A stretch of 64,000 nucleotides of DNA from Kordia algicida OT-1 (GTDB lineage Bacteria; Bacteroidota; Bacteroidia; Flavobacteriales; Flavobacteriaceae), in assembly GCF_000154725.1 (NCBI RefSeq), contig NZ_DS544873.1, positions 4,375,085 to 4,439,084 on the forward strand, written 5' to 3'. Positions 8,401 through 22,193 of the stretch are shown one piece after another. The translations under genes were made by a program, and so were the position numbers. Position 1 is the first letter of the stretch, and each line of letters opens with the position of its first letter. The notes below the pieces were generated by a model. That model ran no database searches and was not told the origin of the DNA. It worked only from the letters and a program-made list of their open reading frames with translations.

Positions 8401-8607
8401 GGAAGACCTGTAAAAGACGGTGAATTCCAAACGGCTTGTTCTGCGGCATGTAGTTCAGGAGCAATGACATTCGGAGACATCAATGATAAAGAAAGCAAAG
8501 TTGCTGAATTATTAGAAGATGACCGTATGTATCATTTATTAGAGCATGTTGGGACAAAACCAAACGTACAATATCACGTAAAGGTTAGAAACACTAAAGA
8601 AGCATAA
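5440..8607 (+). CDS. actB: Alternative complex III subunit B, molybdopterin-oxidoreductase-like Fe-S protein
   Basis: ActB is the large peripheral subunit of alternative complex III. It fuses a molybdopterin-oxidoreductase-like domain, which in characterised ACIII carries no Mo cofactor, to a four-cluster ferredoxin domain. In 1055 residues: an internal Tat-like motif SRRDFLK at 51-57 followed by a lipobox-like LAAC (Cys71); the MopB-like region (about 80-760); then the Fe-S domain starting near residue 790. The Fe-S cysteine groups read CTGCGACVIACH, CQHCNHAPCETVCP, CVGTRYCANNCP and CSMCIQK...CSAACSSG. An acidic Ala/Glu-rich insert near 530-590 looks like a surface loop. Both ends and the context agree with family ActB. 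Confidence 0.95.
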   Translation: MASNKKYWKSVEELNENSTIVETLRQNEFVEEVPVDEFLGDKQTLESSSTSRRDFLKYVGFSTAAATLAACEGPVIKSIPYVVQPETIVPGVADYYATTIADGYDFASILIKTREGRPIKVENNKEAVTKGSANARVHASVLSLYDSMRVKQPKIAGADASWETLDAEIGQKLNQVSASGKQIVLLTQTFASPSTAKLVGEFKARYGNVNHVVYDAISESTALDAFEAKYGQRALADYDFSKAEVIVSVGADFLGDWQGGGYDDGYAKGRIPTGKHGQAKMSRHVQFEANMTLSGANADKRVPLSPSDQKVALAKIYAGVTGNSVSGRKLSDKVEDAIKKAVAQLKKANSKAVVVSGINDVDAQSLVLAINESLNSEAFDKDAPRKIRQGDDKAVAKLISDMKAGTVGGIIMAGVNPVYTLPNGEEFGEALSKLDLAVTFTQKEDETALKTKYVAAAPHYLESWGDVEIKKGHYSVMQPTIRPLFDTRQFQDALLKWTGNEKAYYEYLKETWTTEILGGTPWNIAVHDGVFKTTAEVSLADEANAAIEEAEANQTDEEVGATAMQNTDVGAQARKLASTPAASGMELVLYAKTGMGDGQQANNPWLQEFPDPITRASWDNYLTISQADADANEIKNWNVANGGLNGSYVDVTVNGQVIKNVPVIIQPGQAKGTVGLALGYGKKAGIKEEMQTGVNAYKIYNNFNATQNVSISLAGGTHEFACVQLHNTLMGRGDIVKETTLEIFNTKDHHEWNPMPHVSKNHEMIDATDPGADMWDEFDRSIGHHFNLAIDLNACTGCGACVIACHAENNVPVVGKSEVRRSRDMHWLRIDRYYSSEDTFSEDVEKKENFGGLFGDNGSLGGFVEMEDPAENPQVAFQPVMCQHCNHAPCETVCPVAATSHGRQGQNHMAYNRCVGTRYCANNCPYKVRRFNWFLYNKNDEFDYHMNDDLGRMVLNPDVVVRSRGVMEKCSMCIQKTQKTILDAKRDGRPVKDGEFQTACSAACSSGAMTFGDINDKESKVAELLEDDRMYHLLEHVGTKPNVQYHVKVRNTKEA

Positions 8608-8641
8608 AAAATAATTAATAAGAAACAATTATAAACGGATT

Positions 8642-10033
8642 ATGGCGTCGCATTACGAAGCACCTATAAGAAAACCCTTAGTAACTGGAGATAAATCATA
8701 TCATGATGTAACTCTTGATATTGTCGCTCCAGTAGAAGGAAAAGCAAATAAGCAATGGTGGATAGTATTCTCAATTGCTTTGATAGCATTCCTTTGGGGA
8801 ATTGGATGTATCATCTATACAGTATCTACTGGAATTGGAGTTTGGGGTCTTAACAAAACTGTCGGTTGGGCTTGGGATATTACAAACTTTGTATGGTGGG
8901 TTGGTATTGGTCACGCAGGAACCTTAATTTCTGCCGTACTATTACTTTTCCGTCAAAAATGGAGAATGGCAATTAACCGTTCAGCGGAAGCCATGACGAT
9001 CTTTTCAGTAGTGCAAGCGGGACTTTTCCCAATTATTCACATGGGTCGTCCATGGTTAGCATATTGGGTATTACCAATTCCAAACCAATTTGGATCACTA
9101 TGGGTAAACTTTAACTCACCATTACTTTGGGATGTATTTGCAATCTCTACATATTTATCTGTGTCATTAGTATTCTGGTGGACAGGTTTATTGCCAGATT
9201 TTGCAATGATTAGAGACAGAGCTGTAAAGCCTTTCCAAAAGAAAATATACAGTTTAGTAAGTTTTGGATGGAGTGGACGTGCTAAAGATTGGCAACGTTT
9301 TGAAGAAGTATCTTTGGTACTTGCAGGTTTAGCAACACCATTAGTACTTTCTGTACATACCATTGTATCGTTTGACTTCGCAACATCGGTAATTCCAGGA
9401 TGGCATACAACAATTTTCCCTCCTTACTTCGTTGCAGGTGCGATCTTCTCAGGATTCGCAATGGTAAATACACTATTAATCATTATGAGAAAAGTATGTA
9501 ATATGGAAGACTATATTACATTACAACACATTGAATTAATGAACATCGTAATTATGATTACTGGTTCAATTGTTGGATGTGCCTATATAACTGAGTTATT
9601 CATCGCATGGTATTCAGGAGTTGAATACGAACAATATGCATTCTTAAACAGAGCAACTGGTCCTTACTGGTGGGCATATTGGGCAATGATGACATGTAAC
9701 GTGTTCTCTCCACAATTTATGTGGTCTAAAAAATTAAGAACAAGTATCATGTTCTCTTTTATAATCTCTATTGTCGTAAACATAGGAATGTGGTTTGAGC
9801 GTTTCGTAATTATCGTTACATCATTACACAGAGATTACCTTCCATCATCATGGACGATGTTCTCACCAACATTTGTAGACATAGGAATATTTATTGGTAC
9901 GATTGGATTCTTCTTTGTATTGTTCTTGTTATACTCTCGAACATTCCCTGTAATTGCACAGGCGGAAGTAAAATCTATCTTAAAATCATCAGGAGAAAAA
10001 TATAAAAAACTAAGAGACGGTAACCATGAGTAG
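8642..10033 (+). CDS. actC: Alternative complex III subunit C, NrfD-like quinol-binding membrane protein
   Basis: ActC is the polytopic NrfD/PsrC-like subunit that binds menaquinol in the membrane and passes electrons to ActB. The 463-residue protein has about nine to ten hydrophobic helices. Conserved features include GHAGTLISA near the third helix, IIHMGRPWLAYW after it, and the late signature FERF...LHRDYLP with the HRDYLP block at 396-401. It overlaps actD by 8 bp (ATGAGTAG), so translation of the two is probably coupled. A partial look-alike of its C-terminal helices is encoded at 19193-19762. Confidence 0.95.
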   Translation: MASHYEAPIRKPLVTGDKSYHDVTLDIVAPVEGKANKQWWIVFSIALIAFLWGIGCIIYTVSTGIGVWGLNKTVGWAWDITNFVWWVGIGHAGTLISAVLLLFRQKWRMAINRSAEAMTIFSVVQAGLFPIIHMGRPWLAYWVLPIPNQFGSLWVNFNSPLLWDVFAISTYLSVSLVFWWTGLLPDFAMIRDRAVKPFQKKIYSLVSFGWSGRAKDWQRFEEVSLVLAGLATPLVLSVHTIVSFDFATSVIPGWHTTIFPPYFVAGAIFSGFAMVNTLLIIMRKVCNMEDYITLQHIELMNIVIMITGSIVGCAYITELFIAWYSGVEYEQYAFLNRATGPYWWAYWAMMTCNVFSPQFMWSKKLRTSIMFSFIISIVVNIGMWFERFVIIVTSLHRDYLPSSWTMFSPTFVDIGIFIGTIGFFFVLFLLYSRTFPVIAQAEVKSILKSSGEKYKKLRDGNHE

Positions 10034-13722: not shown

Positions 13723-15522
13723 ATGTCAGCAACAGCAGTACACGCAGGAGATCACGGACACGACGATCACGGACATCATCATAAAGAGACATTCATTACT
13801 AAATATATATTTAGTCAAGATCATAAAATGATTGCCAAGCAGTATCTAATTACAGGTACTATCATGGGAGTTATCGGGATCATGATGTCTATATTTTTCC
13901 GTATGCAAATTGCATGGCCAAAAGAATCATTCACAATTTTCGAAATATTCTTAGGGAATTGGGCGCCAGGTGGTGTAATGAGTGCAGATAAATACCTTGC
14001 ATTAGTTACCATTCATGGAACTATTATGGTATTCTTCGTATTAACGGCTGGATTGAGTGGTACTTTTAGTAACCTGCTAATTCCATTGCAAATTGGAGCT
14101 CGTGATATGGCTTCAGGATTCTTAAACATGGTATCATATTGGTTATTCTTTATCTCAAGTGTAATCATGGTTATCTCTTTATTTGTTGAAGGTGGAGCGG
14201 CATCATCAGGTTGGACAATCTATCCTCCGTTAAGTGCCTTGCCTGAAGCAATTCCTGGTTCAGGATTAGGAATGACACTATGGTTAGTATCAATGGCAAT
14301 ATTTATTGCTTCGTCACTACTTGGTTCATTAAACTACGTAGTAACAGTTATCAACCTTAGAACAAAAGGAATGTCTATGACAAGATTGCCACTTACAATT
14401 TGGGCTTTCTTTGTAACAGCAATTATCGGTATTGTATCATTCCCAGTATTACTATCAGCAGCATTACTATTAATCTTTGATAGAAGTTTTGGAACATCAT
14501 TCTACTTATCAGACATATTTATTCAAGGAGAAGTGTTACACTATCAAGGTGGATCGCCTGTATTATTCGAACACTTATTCTGGTTCTTAGGACATCCAGA
14601 AGTATACATTGTACTACTTCCAGCATTAGGTATTACCTCAGAAATTATTGCTACCAACTCTCGAAAACCGATCTTCGGATACAGAGCCATGGTTGCATCG
14701 ATCTTAGCAATTGCATTCTTATCAACAATTGTTTGGGGTCACCATATGTTTATCTCAGGGATGAATCCATTCCTAGGATCTGTATTTACATTTACAACAC
14801 TATTAATTGCAATACCATCAGCAGTAAAAGCATTCAACTATATTACAACACTCTGGAAAGGAAACTTACAGATGAATCCAGCGATGCTATTCTCAATCGG
14901 ATTGGTATCAACGTTCATCACAGGTGGACTAACAGGAATTATTTTAGGTGATAGTACACTTGATATCAACGTACACGATACATACTTCGTAGTAGCGCAT
15001 TTCCACTTAGTAATGGGAATCTCAGCACTATACGGAATGTTTGCAGGTGTATATCATTGGTTCCCAAGAATGTTTGGAAGAATGATGAACAAAAACTTAG
15101 GATACGTTCACTTCTGGGTAACGGCAGTCTGTGCGTACGGAGTATTCTTCCCAATGCACTTTATCGGAATGGCAGGGTTGCCGAGACGTTACTATACAAA
15201 CTCTGAATTCCCGTTATTTGATGATTTAGCAAACGTAAACGTAGTAATTACAATGTTTGCTATCATTGGAGGAACTTTCCAATTAGTATTCCTATACAAC
15301 TTCTTCGGAAGCATGTTCTATGGAAAAAAAGCACCACAAAATCCTTGGAGATCAAATACGTTAGAATGGACAGCTCCTGTAGAACACATACACGGAAACT
15401 GGCCAGGAGAAATTCCTCATGTACACCGTTGGGCTTATGACTATAGCAAGCCAGGACATGATGACGATTTCGTTCCTCAAAACGTTCCAATGAAAGATGG
15501 TGAAGAAGAAATGCATCACTAA
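13723..15522 (+). CDS. coxA: Cytochrome c oxidase subunit I
   Basis: The catalytic haem-copper oxidase subunit that reduces oxygen and pumps protons. All key residues are present in the 599-residue protein: His98 (low-spin haem), H291-P-E-V-Y295 with Glu293 and the cross-linking Tyr295 (CuB and K-channel entrance), His340-His341 (CuB), His426 (high-spin haem) and His428 (low-spin haem). The GHPEVY form points to an A-type oxidase. The N-terminus is His-rich (residues 7-20). It is the last gene of the act-cox operon and is followed by a small hairpin repeat and a strong terminator. Confidence 0.97.
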   Translation: MSATAVHAGDHGHDDHGHHHKETFITKYIFSQDHKMIAKQYLITGTIMGVIGIMMSIFFRMQIAWPKESFTIFEIFLGNWAPGGVMSADKYLALVTIHGTIMVFFVLTAGLSGTFSNLLIPLQIGARDMASGFLNMVSYWLFFISSVIMVISLFVEGGAASSGWTIYPPLSALPEAIPGSGLGMTLWLVSMAIFIASSLLGSLNYVVTVINLRTKGMSMTRLPLTIWAFFVTAIIGIVSFPVLLSAALLLIFDRSFGTSFYLSDIFIQGEVLHYQGGSPVLFEHLFWFLGHPEVYIVLLPALGITSEIIATNSRKPIFGYRAMVASILAIAFLSTIVWGHHMFISGMNPFLGSVFTFTTLLIAIPSAVKAFNYITTLWKGNLQMNPAMLFSIGLVSTFITGGLTGIILGDSTLDINVHDTYFVVAHFHLVMGISALYGMFAGVYHWFPRMFGRMMNKNLGYVHFWVTAVCAYGVFFPMHFIGMAGLPRRYYTNSEFPLFDDLANVNVVITMFAIIGGTFQLVFLYNFFGSMFYGKKAPQNPWRSNTLEWTAPVEHIHGNWPGEIPHVHRWAYDYSKPGHDDDFVPQNVPMKDGEEEMHH

Positions 15523-16909: not shown

Positions 16910-18244
16910 ATGTATAACTATCCAAATACAATTCCATTCTTCAAGCTATTCTTAAAATCGTCTTCCATCACGCGAAACCCAATTCCGTTTCACAAAAGTG
17001 GTTTTGAAAAACATGGAAATTCATTTGCAATTGCGCCACCATTTGCAAAAAAAGTTATGCTAACACGCGATGCTGAAATCACAAAACACTTACTACGTAA
17101 AAATCATCGGAACTACAACAAATCTAAAATTCAAACGAAATTCCTCTCAAAATACGTTGGGAAAGGATTGTTGACTTCTAGTGGTGATTATTGGTTAAAA
17201 CAACGACGACTCATTCAACCTGCATTTCATAGAGAAAAACTGCAAAAATTAGTCGCGATCATGGAAGGCACTATCGAAAAACAACTCGAAAACATTCAAC
17301 GAAACAAAGTGATCGATTCGTATCCAATCATGAACGAATTGGCGTTTCACGTCGTAGCAAAATCACTATTCAATTATTCTTCGGATGACAATACCATGCA
17401 TCGACTGCAAGAAATTATAGAAACTTTGCAAGATTTTATCATCCGAGAAATTCGTCAGCCACACAAAAAATGGTGGTATCAAATCAGTGGTTTGGTCAAA
17501 AAACACATGGAATTGGTTAAGGAAAGTAGAGACATTATCAACAAAGTTATTGATGAACGTCGTGTGTCCGACAAAGAACATGACGATTTATTAGACATGC
17601 TACTCAAAGCAAAATACGAAGACGATGGAACTTCAATGACCAACGAACAACTTATTGATGAAATACTAATCTTCTTTGTAGCAGGACACGAAACTACAGC
17701 AAATGCGCTCACGTTTACCTTTCATCTCATTGCGAGAAATTCTGAAGTATATAAAAAAGTTGTTGCCGAAATTGATACAATTGACGATGGCTTACCGCCG
17801 ATGGAAAAAATAGCAAAACTCAATTATGTAAAAAACTGTGTGGAAGAAGCCTTGCGCTTATATCCGCCAGCGTGGATTACAGATCGAGTTGCAATAGAAG
17901 ATGACGAATTTGCAGGTTTCAAGATTGAAAAAGGAACGATGATTGGAATCTCGTTCTATGAATTGCATCGAAATCCAACCTATTGGAAAAATCCGAATGA
18001 CTTCATTCCTGAACGTTTCTCCGATGAAAACCGAAAAGAAACCGCAGGCTATTACTTTCCATTTGGCGCCGGACCGCGAATGTGTATCGGAAATAGTTTT
18101 GCACTTTACGAAATGATGTTAACTGTCTATCAAATGCTAAAAAAATATCGCATAGAAACCGATCAGGAAACGGTTGAAATCGCACCATTAATTACGCTAA
18201 AACCGATCAATGTTACGCTGAAATTCAACAAAAGAAACGCTTGA
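16910..18244 (+). CDS. Cytochrome P450 monooxygenase
   Basis: A haem-thiolate monooxygenase. The 444-residue protein has the I-helix AGHETTA at 258-264, the K-helix ExxR (E313-R316), and the haem loop [16 protein letters not shown] with the axial Cys392. The overall pattern resembles the bacterial CYP family with long-chain fatty-acid-hydroxylase-like features, but the substrate cannot be read from sequence. No ferredoxin or reductase gene is near, so partners must be encoded elsewhere. A longer form from TTG 16841 would add 23 polar residues; I prefer ATG 16910. Its stop overlaps the queG start by four bases (TTGA). Confidence 0.92.
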
Positions 18245-19173
18245 AATCTACACAAAAACATACGGAACTCATCAAAGCAGAAGCAAAACGCTTAGGTTTT
18301 TTATCGTGTGGAATCTCAAAATCAGAATTCTTAGAAGAAGAAGCGCCACGACTTGAAACTTGGCTCAATAAAAATATGCATGGCGAAATGAGTTACATGG
18401 AAAATCATTTTGACAAACGATTAGATCCCACAAAATTAGTAGACGACTCAAAATCGGTCGTTTCACTATTGCTCAATTACTATCCATCAGAAACTCAAAA
18501 AGATCCAGAAGCGCCAAAAATCTCAAAATACGCATACGGAACTGACTATCATTTTGTCATAAAAGACAAACTAAAACAACTCTTAAACTTCATTCAAGAA
18601 GAAATCGGAGAAGTTTCAGGACGTGCATTTGTAGACTCAGCACCAGTATTAGACAAAGCTTGGGCAGCAAAAAGTGGTTTGGGTTGGATTGGAAAACACA
18701 GTAACTTACTCACACAAAAAGTTGGTTCGTTCTATTTTATTGCCGAACTCATCATTGATTTAGAACTCGAATACGATTTGCCAGTCACCGATCATTGCGG
18801 AAGCTGTACGGCATGCATAGACGCGTGTCCTACACAAGCCATTGTAGAACCGTATGTGGTTGACGGAAGCAAATGTATATCCTATTTTACCATTGAACTC
18901 AAAAACGAAATTCCAACACACGTGCAAGGGCAATTTGACAATTGGATGTTTGGTTGCGATGTATGTCAAGACGTTTGCCCGTGGAATCGTTTCTCTAAAC
19001 CACACAACGAACCCTTATTCAATCCGCATCCAGAATTACTATCCATGAGTAAAAAAGAATGGGAAGAAATCACTCAAGAAGTCTTTAGTGAAATCTTTAA
19101 AAAATCTGCGGTAAAACGAACAAAATATACAGGTTTGATGCGGAATATTCAGTTCTTAAAAACTGAAAATTGA
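18241..19173 (+). CDS. queG: Epoxyqueuosine reductase QueG
   Basis: QueG is the cobalamin-dependent iron-sulphur enzyme that reduces epoxyqueuosine to queuosine in the wobble position of certain tRNAs. The 310-residue protein has the N-terminal catalytic domain (about 1-180, with [20 protein letters not shown]) and two ferredoxin-type [4Fe-4S] motifs: [12 protein letters not shown], and [11 protein letters not shown] near the C-terminus. The best start is the TTG at 18241, which overlaps the P450 stop codon (TTGA). The N-terminus read from there matches the family, and no in-frame ATG lies close by. Confidence 0.93.
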
Positions 19174-19192
19174 CATTTTAAAGTTTCGAAAA

Positions 19193-19762
19193 ATGGTTCA
19201 AAACACAAACAATATCGTAAGCTTTATATCGGAAAACTTTTTTCTCCCATTTGCTATATACTCAATCATATTCTTTACTCTTTACAGATTTAATAAAGAC
19301 AAAAAAGTACTCAAAGAATTTGATAAAATAGCAATTCAACTTACCATTTGGGTTGCAACTATTTGGATTCTTCTCAAAATCACAGGAATCGTCACATTCT
19401 TAGTTCAAATGAAATTAGAAGATAGCTCAACAACTTTTTCTCAAAATTTATCCTGGTTTATCAGAAAAACGTGGTTTCAAATTTTCTTTTGGATAATTTT
19501 ATCGCAGTTATTACGAATAAAATACATTGCAAAATATCTTTTTCCTAGAATCTTAATTGCCTTCTTTCTTTCCTTTAGTTTTGAAAAAATCACAATGTTA
19601 CTAATTAACATACATCGTGATTATCTTCCTGAATCGGTAAACTTATACACTAATATTCCTTCATTAATAGCTGTATTGCTACTAAAAACACTTATTTTCA
19701 CGCTAATTGTAAGTGTATTTTATCTAGGAAAACGCTTTTTTAAAAATGATAATAGCAAGTAA
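19193..19762 (+). CDS. Orphan multi-pass membrane protein with an ActC/NrfD-like C-terminal signature
   Basis: A 189-residue protein with about five hydrophobic segments (about 12-30, 48-72, 92-108, 118-138, 155-180). I do not recognise it as a named family. Its second half carries F130-E-K, eight residues, then HRDYLP at 141-146. This is the same spacing and motif as ActC (F385-E-R, eight residues, HRDYLP at 396-401), and the preceding helices also align in outline. It lacks the N-terminal half of ActC. It follows queG by 19 bp on the same strand and is probably co-transcribed. Function unknown; a degenerate or miniature NrfD-type quinone-site protein is an inference. Confidence 0.75.
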   Translation: MVQNTNNIVSFISENFFLPFAIYSIIFFTLYRFNKDKKVLKEFDKIAIQLTIWVATIWILLKITGIVTFLVQMKLEDSSTTFSQNLSWFIRKTWFQIFFWIILSQLLRIKYIAKYLFPRILIAFFLSFSFEKITMLLINIHRDYLPESVNLYTNIPSLIAVLLLKTLIFTLIVSVFYLGKRFFKNDNSK

Positions 19763-19831
19763 AACGTACTCATCAACGTTAAATAAAACGAAAGAAACCA
19801 CATTTAATTTTTTCCTTTAAACTCAGACATT

Positions 19832-19839
19832 TAAATTTG
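19832..19839 (+). promoter_or_regulatory. Putative -7 box for maeB
   Basis: TAAATTTG fits TAnnTTTG and lies 41 bases before the first maeB ATG. No clear -33 TTG. Confidence 0.4.
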
Positions 19840-19880
19840 TAAATTCATATTGCCTGTAAAACATCAATCAGTTACAAGCG

Positions 19881-22193
19881 ATGAAACCGATCCATATGAG
19901 CAAAAGCAACAAAGAACGCAAAAGGAGAGAAGCACTAATATACCATGCAAAACCGCAACCAGGAAAAATAAAAGTTGTTCCTACCAAAAGATATTCTACA
20001 CAACGTGATTTATCCTTAGCGTATTCTCCCGGAGTTGCAGAACCTTGCTTAGAAATAGCAAAAGACAAAGCAAACGTTTACAAATACACAACCAAAGCAA
20101 ACTTGGTCGCTGTAATCTCAAATGGAACAGCAGTTTTAGGCTTAGGCGATATTGGTCCTGAAGCTTCAAAACCTGTCATGGAAGGAAAAGGATTGCTCTT
20201 TAAAATCTTTGCGGATATAGATGTGTTTGATATTGAGGTAGATACAAAAGATGTCGATCAATTCATTGAAACGGTCAAAAATATTGCGCCAACTTTTGGA
20301 GGAATCAATTTAGAAGATATTGCAGCTCCAGAAGCATTTGAAATAGAACGCAGACTCATAGAAGAATTAGACATTCCTGTAATGCACGACGATCAGCATG
20401 GAACGGCAATCATTTCTTCGGCAGCGTTAATTAATGCCTTAGAATTGGCAGAAAAAAACATAGAAGATGTACGTTTTGTAGTTTCAGGAGCAGGTTCAGC
20501 AGCAATCTCATGTATGAATCTATACGTAGCGCTTGGTGCGAAACTGGAAAACATTGCTATGTTTGACATTGATGGACTTTTGCACAAAGGTAGAACGGAC
20601 TTATCTCCAATGCAAGCACGCTTTAGAACATCAAAACACTACAACTCGCTAGCAGATGCAATGAAAAATGCAGACGTATTTCTGGGACTTTCTGTAGGAA
20701 ACATAGTGTCGCAAGACATGTTACGCTCTATGGCAGATAATCCAATTGTGTTTGCAATGGCAAATCCGACACCAGAAATATCTTATGCAGAAGCCATTGC
20801 TTCCCGAGAAGATATCATCATGGCAACAGGTCGCTCAGATCATCCAAATCAAGTAAACAATGTACTTGGTTTTCCATTCATATTTCGTGGTGCGTTAGAT
20901 GTGCGTGCCACAAAAATTAACGAAGCAATGAAAATGGCTGCGGTCAAAGCATTAGCGGCATTAGCAAAAGAACCTGTTCCAGAGCAAGTAAACATCGCTT
21001 ATGGTGAAACAAAACTCAACTTTGGAAAAGAATACATCATTCCAAAACCATTTGACCCAAGACTCATTGCCAAAATTCCACCAGCCATCGCAAAAGCAGC
21101 AATGGAATCTGGAGTGGCAACAGAACCTATAGAAGATTGGGCACGTTATGAAGACGAACTCTTACACCGATTAGGTGCCGACAATAAAATAATTCGACTA
21201 CTACACAAAAGAGCTAGAACAAATCCGAAACGTATTGTATTTGCAGAAGCCGATCATTTAGACGTGCTCAAAGCGGCACAATATGTATACGATGAACGAA
21301 TTGCTATTCCTATCCTATTAGGGAACGAAAAAACAATTCACGAACTCAGAGATGAGTTGGAATTTGATGGTGATGTAGAAATAATAGATCCAAAAAGCGA
21401 CGAACAAATAGAACGCAGAGAACGATTTGCAAATATCTATTGGGAATCACGAAAACGCAAAGGTGTTACTATTATAGATGCGCAAAAGAAAATGCGCGAA
21501 CGTAACTACTTTGCCGCAATGTTGGTAAATGATGGATATGCTGACGGATTAATCTCAGGATATTCCAGAAGCTATCCAACTGTGGTAAAACCTATGTTGG
21601 AACTCATCGGAACGGCAAAAGGTGTAAAACGAGTAGCAACCACCAACCTAATGATTACCGAGCGTGGACCTATGTTTCTATCAGATACGTCTATAAATAT
21701 TGATCCATCTGGGCGAGAATTGGCAAAAATTGCACAAATGACAGCATTAACGGTAAAAATGTTTGGACTCGAACCAAATATTGCCATGCTATCATACTCA
21801 AACTTTGGTTCATCGGAACATGAAAATGCTAAAAAAGTAAGTGAGGCAGTAGAATATCTTCATAGATATTATCCAGAAATCAACGTAGATGGAGCATTAC
21901 AATCCGACTTTGCTTTAAACAGAGAAATGCTAGCAGAAAAATTTCCATTCTCAAAACTAGCAGGAAAAGAAGTAAACACACTCGTATTTCCAAATCTCGA
22001 TGCTGCAAACATTACTTATAAATTGATGAAAGAACTAAACAAAGCAGATTCTATTGGACCTATCATGTTAGGAATGAGCAAGCCTGTACACATCTTGCAA
22101 TTAGGCTCAAGCGTTGACGAAATCATAAATATGGCAGCTGTTGCTGTAGTTGACTCACAAGAAAAAGAAAAGTGGCAACACCGAAAAGAGTAA
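19881..22193 (+). CDS. maeB: NADP-dependent malic enzyme with phosphotransacetylase-like domain
   Basis: Oxidative decarboxylation of malate to pyruvate and CO2, giving NADPH. The 770-residue protein is the two-domain MaeB type: malic domain and NAD(P)-binding domain (about 15-420, with STQRDLSLAYSPGVAEPC, HDDQHGTA and FVVSGAGSAAISC), followed by a phosphotransacetylase-like domain (about 430-760). That C-terminal domain is regulatory, binding acetyl-CoA, in studied homologues. A second in-frame ATG at 19896 (MSKSNKERK) is an equally plausible start. Monocistronic in appearance. Confidence 0.95.
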   Translation: MKPIHMSKSNKERKRREALIYHAKPQPGKIKVVPTKRYSTQRDLSLAYSPGVAEPCLEIAKDKANVYKYTTKANLVAVISNGTAVLGLGDIGPEASKPVMEGKGLLFKIFADIDVFDIEVDTKDVDQFIETVKNIAPTFGGINLEDIAAPEAFEIERRLIEELDIPVMHDDQHGTAIISSAALINALELAEKNIEDVRFVVSGAGSAAISCMNLYVALGAKLENIAMFDIDGLLHKGRTDLSPMQARFRTSKHYNSLADAMKNADVFLGLSVGNIVSQDMLRSMADNPIVFAMANPTPEISYAEAIASREDIIMATGRSDHPNQVNNVLGFPFIFRGALDVRATKINEAMKMAAVKALAALAKEPVPEQVNIAYGETKLNFGKEYIIPKPFDPRLIAKIPPAIAKAAMESGVATEPIEDWARYEDELLHRLGADNKIIRLLHKRARTNPKRIVFAEADHLDVLKAAQYVYDERIAIPILLGNEKTIHELRDELEFDGDVEIIDPKSDEQIERRERFANIYWESRKRKGVTIIDAQKKMRERNYFAAMLVNDGYADGLISGYSRSYPTVVKPMLELIGTAKGVKRVATTNLMITERGPMFLSDTSINIDPSGRELAKIAQMTALTVKMFGLEPNIAMLSYSNFGSSEHENAKKVSEAVEYLHRYYPEINVDGALQSDFALNREMLAEKFPFSKLAGKEVNTLVFPNLDAANITYKLMKELNKADSIGPIMLGMSKPVHILQLGSSVDEIINMAAVAVVDSQEKEKWQHRKE

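Follow-up and report, generated by a model that had tools for sequence, protein, structure and literature searches.

What is a 189-residue membrane protein with a signature of ActC, a subunit of alternative complex III (ACIII), doing by itself outside the act operon? The question is raised by a gene in the 64,000-nucleotide stretch of Kordia algicida OT-1 DNA analysed here (the window), whose product we call half-ActC. Its translated frame reads F130-E131-K132, eight residues and H141-R-D-Y-L-P146, and the window ActC reads F-E-R, eight residues and H-R-D-Y-L-P (E386, H396), both as a sequence-only reading of this DNA had stated. That reading was also right in placing the gene outside any respiratory operon and in finding such a protein unusual, although the act-cox cluster is still close: coxA ends at 15522, only 3.7 kb upstream, and actC lies 9 kb away. 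The gene begins 19 bp after the stop codon of queG, and read-through from queG is our guess; 118 bp separate its own stop from a downstream gene which, naming it by eye, we take to encode a malic enzyme (maeB-like). Coordinates are given in Table 1. In the open-licence literature we found no paper on ActC fragments or truncated ActC paralogues.

Table 1. Features of the window (window coordinates). Helices are those of an AlphaFold2 (AF2) model of half-ActC.
Feature	Position	Strand	Remark
half-ActC gene	19193..19762	+	ATG start, intact frame, 189-aa stand-alone membrane protein
F-E-K through HRDYLP loop, residues 130-146	19580..19630	+	F-E-K corresponds to the ActC pair Glu394/Arg395
queG, upstream neighbour	18241..19173	+	
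presumed malic-enzyme gene (maeB-like), downstream neighbour	19881..22193	+	name assigned by eye
ActC, parent subunit	8642..10033	+	9425-9937 aligns with the stand-alone profile
CoxA, parent of the mini-CoxA family of relatives	13723..15522	+	
right-hand junction	19763..19800	.	sequence shared with genus relatives L142, L138, L140
model helix 2-33, TM6 equivalent	19196..19291	+	AF2 model; register from sequence match
model helix 37-76, TM7 equivalent	19301..19420	+	AF2 model
model helix 79-106, region of helix 7a and TM8	19427..19510	+	AF2 model
model helices 110-114, 116-127, 130-141, TM9 equivalent with E/K pair	19520..19615	+	AF2 model
model helix 155-188, TM10 equivalent	19655..19756	+	AF2 model

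Searches with the single sequence yielded little. The window protein alone had no Pfam match at E<=10, a chance match only in NCBIfam, and nothing relevant in a phmmer search of the PDB; a scan of genome contigs gave 61 stretches, none of them confirmed. The window ActC itself matches Pfam NrfD at 3.6e-19. Among 60 related genomes, clear kin was found only in G008 (32% identity, 9e-22), and a weak match in G002 (0.56) turned out, once read, to be an ORF of the same size with the signature. These two and the window protein made up profile A2; ten stand-alone proteins, the window protein included, made up profile A3. A2 matches 385 of 397 Flavobacteriaceae genomes at E<=0.01. Among the matches listed, the frames that are not stand-alone measure 322-625 aa and were taken as ActC; their E is typically near 1e-12, with alignments that span positions 11-178 of the 192-position model. 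A3 finds the window ActC at 4.6e-23, in agreement with the description of the product as a half-size ActC/NrfD-like protein. In the PDB it matches four different sequences, each of them an ACIII subunit C (F. johnsoniae 6btm_C, 2.3e-22; R. marinus 6f0k_C, 1.5e-18; Roseiflexus 6lod_C, 1.7e-10; Chloroflexus 8k9e_C, 2e-10), with no ActF and no PsrC at E<=10.

The relation is independent of the six-residue motif, since ActC is still found with the signature columns removed. When the 21 columns FER..HRDYLPSSW were taken out, the window ActC scored 3e-6 and the top-scoring ActC 2.5e-12; a profile cut down to the columns that precede the signature gave 1.8e-8 and 7e-13 (3116 ORFs in both cases). The profile comparison that had been proposed together with the sequence-only reading thus gives a clear match outside the motif. 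Judged from these profiles, half-ActC is a real homologue of the C-terminal half of ActC, with which it aligns over TM6-TM10 across most of its own length. The N-terminal half is absent, as had been noted, only TM6-TM10 being matched. Where the sequence-only reading spoke of the last four ActC helices, the match takes in TM6-TM10. With ActC (PDB 6btm_C, 6f0k_C; NrfD family PF03916) half-ActC has in common the sequence of TM6-TM10, the Glu/Arg gate position and the HRDYLP loop. Unlike ActC, it is devoid of TM1-TM5, hence of the quinol site and the cytoplasmic half-channel, lies outside the act operon and has diverged far faster. Its 189 aa and five helical stretches of membrane-crossing length fall short of the two-bundle layout (8-10 TMH) of NrfD proteins.

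An AlphaFold2 model of the window protein, built on ten stand-alone sequences, has a mean pLDDT of 82.5 and a pTM of 0.75. Fold searches with it listed generic helix bundles among their matches, and 6btm_C stood at rank 17 (Z 7.2, 123 residues, 4.1 A), not above unrelated rows, with model residues 1-131 overlaid on 257-385, near the register of the sequence match. A less diverged protein from Mangrovimonas (L044) was modelled with the same alignment, L044 on top, and reached a pLDDT of 86.7. For this model Foldseek placed 6btm_C first at probability 0.98 and 27% identity, but with an E of 0.16, a TM-score of 0.45 and an rmsd of 9.8 A over 170 columns. VIA-align also placed 6btm_C first (Z 10.4, 127 residues, 3.6 A, 3-131 on 256-385); its next, unrelated row is at Z 9.3, helical bundles can attain Z values of this order, and the overlay leaves TM10 and the loop uncovered. 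An overlay on ActC, likewise proposed as a check of the reading, is therefore non-specific for the window model, and favourable, not decisive, for the L044 model. With loop limits set by hand, the window protein carries 14 Lys and Arg in the three loops expected inside versus 4 in the three outside. This bias fits the orientation of ActC TM6-TM10 with the loop outside, and we infer an N-out/C-in insertion of half-ActC that places HRDYLP at the periplasmic face of the membrane.

We then asked which functional residues of ActC are retained. Published work on R. marinus places the quinol site of ActC in the first bundle (His139, Asp169, Asp253 and others) and gives the second bundle a periplasmic proton half-channel of Tyr270, Tyr323, Glu326, Glu338, Glu394 and Arg395 (PMC5928083). 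The F-E-R of ActC is Glu394/Arg395 of this half-channel, and the homologous stretch begins only at residue 270 of 6f0k_C, so that His139, Asp169 and Asp253 precede it. Because the quinol-site residues so assigned fall in the missing part, the signature is not the quinone-site-like element that it had been called, and half-ActC should neither oxidise quinol nor be an enzyme by itself. A small quinone- or haem-binding protein, as had also been suggested, is a most improbable identity for it: descent from a quinol-oxidising subunit would suit such a role, but the site named in that source (PMC5928083) lies before the homologous stretch and the only His of the window protein sits in the loop.

Window ActC numbering runs eight below that of R. 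marinus in the second half (Y262, E386). Conservation was counted in 23 stand-alones, a set that leaves out L018 (a copy of L017), L026, the second gene of G066, L147-L150 and L252-L254. E386 is kept in 22 of the 23, R387 as Arg in 14 and as Lys in 6 more (R/K in 20), and each residue of H396-R397-D398-Y399-L400-P401 in 21-23. The other half-channel residues are mostly lost: Y262, Y315 and E318 (Tyr270, Tyr323, Glu326) are kept in 4, 3 and 0 proteins, and E330 (Glu338) in 7, with an acidic residue in 13. At the six half-channel positions the window protein has S, K, G, D, E and K, the alignment before TM8 being unsure, and its gate Arg is Lys. The loop is not universal either, as L026 (G423) ends in LHKYFASF and L252 (G535) reads FNRDYQQSNW in its place. 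The genome G066 (L027 / L163) holds two half-ActC-like genes in tandem, one with LRDYLPSS for HRDYLPSS and the second with no loop.

A study of NrfD-like proteins describes the Arg395 position as a gate common to most of them, Lys in one DsrP, and the proteins themselves as two repeats of a four-helix bundle (PMC8076601). On that description, a homodimer of one repeat is conceivable, and half-ActC might be an autonomous 5-TM protein of which two copies rebuild the two-bundle NrfD arrangement, forming an ion-conducting or sensing unit unrelated to ACIII. Such a unit would make sense of the kept gate pair, but sits poorly with the loss of most other half-channel residues, and we consider it quite unlikely.

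The family is sporadic. At least 15 of 397 Flavobacteriaceae genomes have a stand-alone frame of 149-218 aa (profile A2), and among the matches listed for 395 genomes of the class, stand-alone frames outside the family measure 202 and 242 aa (G535, G726). All 15 of these genomes also have a long frame with the ActC N-half, and a split ActC with a stand-alone N-half partner was rejected on this ground. Small TM1-TM2 ORFs, present only in G423 and G227 of the 15, were likewise rejected as too short for the missing half. The N-half search also returned four further long frames (407-433 aa, 1.6e-8 to 5.4e-8), taken as other NrfD-like proteins.

A tree of the 23 stand-alones and 32 ActC C-halves has one label change (support 99/98, 98% of bootstrap trees), and by this tree the stand-alones split once from ActC. 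Their end branches run up to 3.8, whereas those of ActC measure 0-0.32. No row has diverged further than the window protein (3.76); it groups with stand-alones, apart from its own ActC, in a seven-row clade (98/96) with at least three other genera (g56, g60, g122), the order inside the stand-alones being unsure as long branches meet in the tree. A half-ActC from the window's genus (L002) is 77% identical over 132 residues to one of another genus (L020) but only 29% identical to the window protein, as would be expected if the gene had moved between genera. Four genus relatives (G005, G001, G010, G003; L147, L148, L149, L150) have kin of 132-142 aa without HRDYLP, in the same neighbourhood in all four, and G009 has a 199-aa kin frame reading HRDYYNSS.

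The family is under purifying selection. Nei-Gojobori dN/dS is 0.10-0.48 in the 15 computable of 17 pairs, two having saturated dS; 14 of the 15 lie at 0.10-0.36 and the remaining one at 0.48. Pairs with the window protein give 0.32 and 0.48, at large distances, and three pairs of the loopless genus kin 0.15-0.30; the L017/L018 pair is 99% identical and its dN/dS says little. Low dN/dS argues against decay. A decaying, functionless fragment of a duplicated actC, the decayed paralogue of the sequence-only reading, could be imagined from the missing half, the fast divergence, the nearness of actC (9 kb) and kin that are shorter still. It is nonetheless very improbable, given the intact frame, these dN/dS values and a window copy that does not group with its own ActC.

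The genomic surroundings offer no constant partner. A link to queG had been proposed, but across 11 genus genomes, all of which have queG, a stand-alone profile match lies beside it only in the window's genome, and the genus does not bear out a functional link. The queG-maeB gap (window 19173-19881) is variable in the genus: in the seven gaps read it holds half-ActC in the window, is short in L138 and L140, and has other sequence in L136, L137, L142 and L145. At the right-hand junction, CAACGTTAAATAAAAC recurs at the same site in L142, whose gap has other sequence, and GTTAAATAA recurs in the short-gap relatives L138 and L140. Among the neighbours in other carriers, as named by eye, are what we take to be tsaD, trmL, MoxR/DUF58 genes, UbiA, aconitase and more. 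The presumed UbiA prenyltransferase occurs in two cases (G002 and L082), which suggested a prenyl/quinone link. No peripheral iron-sulfur partner was seen among genes named by eye at the half-ActC loci read, the window included. One locus is probably common to three Flavobacterium species, and a different one to two; overall, the family is found at mostly unrelated genomic places.

In some relatives half-ActC rides as an integron-type cassette. In G073 and G294 it stands within a row of mostly single genes parted by repeats of about 160 nt, which in G073 run from L214 8118 to L188 9208, about 69 kb. In 17 cassettes from a 19.5-kb piece of the G073 array, the first bases compared with the reverse complement of the last gave a mean of 9.3 matched, with 10 complementary bases in 12 of the 17; as controls, random pairs gave 4.7, and comparing both ends of a single repeat gave 4.4 (n=16). 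When folded as single-stranded DNA, one repeat has a z of -3.8. The first repeat is preceded, at a distance of 0.5 kb, by a 381-aa tyrosine recombinase; it passes NF040815 and is below the TIGR02249 cut-off (204 of 265 bits), matched in two parts. The recombinases of G147 and G126 pass neither model. The G073 array extends through L214 6464-19001, L186, L154, L187 and L188 (G073:C1:3128463-3199208), behind a XerA/IntI-like recombinase.

Repeats accompany the gene elsewhere as well. A model of G073 repeats only finds one at the 3' end of half-ActC in G008 (8.7e-15) and G135 (1.1e-4) and one upstream of it in G394 (2.7e-6). A broader model, trained partly on the G008 and G135 copies, places a repeat at 5 (L002, L017, L018, L020, L043) of 28 half-ActC loci, many of the 28 having only 1.5 kb of flank, and a second one further off in G008 and G135. 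The window's own genome has a recombinase (G000:C1:4231909-4233204) about 142 kb before the window, followed by three repeats (1.1e-7 to 2.8e-6; L217 7910-13473, G000:C1:4231909-4237472); it scores 231 bits against NF040815 (cut-off 220) and 195 against TIGR02249 (cut-off 265). Beside the window gene there is no attC-like repeat (window 17501-21500, E<=0.01). G073 and G294 thus resemble integron gene cassettes and CALIN elements in their single genes between repeats, and G073 also in its complementary ends and the tyrosine recombinase at the array head. They differ from integrons in that the G073 recombinase scores under the integron-integrase cut-off TIGR02249 and the window gene is without an attC-like site. 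These arrays suggest an integron-like system in Flavobacteriaceae. Literature searches for flavobacterial integrons and cassette decoys gave no relevant result among open-licence papers.

A parallel case is provided by the oxidase. Beside half-ActC, locus L051 has a 148-aa frame (8579-9010) with the CoxA loop DINVHDTY. It belongs to a family (mini-CoxA; L051, L166-L185, L188, L200) whose members each correspond, as separate proteins, to the C-terminal third of cytochrome oxidase subunit I. Among the matches listed, 24 of 199 genomes have small mini-CoxA frames (104-169 aa), not counting a 261-aa frame close to the end of a contig in G169; in the window's genome the one match is the full CoxA. 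HDTY is exact in 14 of the 21 read (the 24 genomes without G223, G153 and G152) and YDTY, KDTY or HATY in 7. Run against the PDB, a profile of 13 mini-CoxA found oxidase subunit I (53 sequences at E<=1, best 7.2e-12); it found the window CoxA at 3.4e-22, and still at 2.1e-11 after the motif had been taken out. Mini-CoxA is present in 5 of 10 genomes with half-ActC versus 19 of 189 others (Fisher p 0.003, kinship ignored). The two genes are adjacent once (L051) and share one G073 cassette array, and mini-CoxA lies beside repeats in G147, G140 and G126.

A third, rare kind of mini-protein, of 84-107 aa, matches the ActC TM1-TM2 loop NKTVGWAWDITN. It was found in G227 and G163 among 199 genomes and also in G423; the G163 case (G163:C1:817958-818194) was identified from its score and the length of its frame, and three frames (136, 143 and 251 aa, in G171, G076 and G203) were set aside as likely cut ActC. 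Two such ORFs (L257 4252-4572, L258 4166-4429) lie between the same two genes, with an extra ORF in L257.

What might these proteins do? We propose, tentatively and as a possibility short of the probable, that half-ActC is an accessory gene made from the C-half of ActC, sporadic in Flavobacteriaceae and partly carried in cassettes, that modulates ACIII/aa3 by mimicry. The family would have split from the ActC C-terminal half (the second four-helix bundle with TM10), losing the quinol site, and would then have become an accessory gene spread in part as integron-type cassettes. The protein may imitate its own part of ActC towards a partner of ActC, namely ActF, ActB or CoxA; bound where ActC binds, it could tune, block or shield the ACIII-cytochrome aa3 assembly. 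As selection mostly keeps the loop and gate pair and the mini-families come from neighbours, the reading we find likeliest is that half-ActC binds in ActC's place. An action of some kind on the respiratory chain is probable. The genes beside it vary between most loci, and genomic context therefore singles out no partner; as nearly all Flavobacteriaceae have ACIII, finding it in all carriers means little.

A map of the ACIII-caa3 supercomplex at 20 A has oxidase subunit I/III fitted beside ActC (PMC5928083), and on that placement the two mini-families come from neighbours. A wider reading, which we regard as somewhat unlikely, is that half-ActC, mini-CoxA and the rare ActC TM1-TM2 proteins form a mobile set from neighbouring terminal-chain subunits, mostly with one periplasmic loop motif kept and partly in integron-like arrays, that would either plug into the ACIII-cytochrome aa3 supercomplex as regulators or stand in for it as decoys.

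The main rival to modulation by mimicry is a protective copy of the target. The ActC periplasmic loop on half-ActC would draw an outside antagonist (a small-molecule inhibitor, bacteriocin, effector or phage factor) away from ACIII, and mini-CoxA would do likewise for the oxidase. It would explain why the best-kept residues of half-ActC form the periplasmic loop, why HDTY or a one-letter variant is found in all 21 mini-CoxA read, and why the third mini-protein keeps the ActC NKTVGWAWDITN loop. But no antagonist is known to us, kin without the loop exist, and a PADLOC search (library of 2023) with five proteins matched no family. PHROGs gave no match for three proteins, and an alignment scan of viral contigs gave 150 stretches, none confirmed. 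A loose precedent is given by peptide deformylase, a drug target of which accessory copies in integron cassettes reduce susceptibility (PMC12690207). Like half-ActC, these are paralogues of an essential protein carried as cassettes. Unlike it, they are whole proteins, active where tested in that source, whereas half-ActC and mini-CoxA are fragments that could not replace the target. Taken together, we judge such a decoy role unlikely.

Mobile accessory genes are rarely expected to derive from core subunits of respiration. Should ACIII or cytochrome aa3 prove to be the target of the mini-proteins, these would offer a means of probing a complex that is not yet understood in mechanism, and would hint that the respiratory chain of flavobacteria has natural antagonists. 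Variation of the loop also extends to ActC itself: a second act-cluster copy in a genus relative (L151, G010:C25:1-6000), ended by the contig end, encodes a divergent ActC with LSKGHLPSTW where the window ActC has LHRDYLPSSW.
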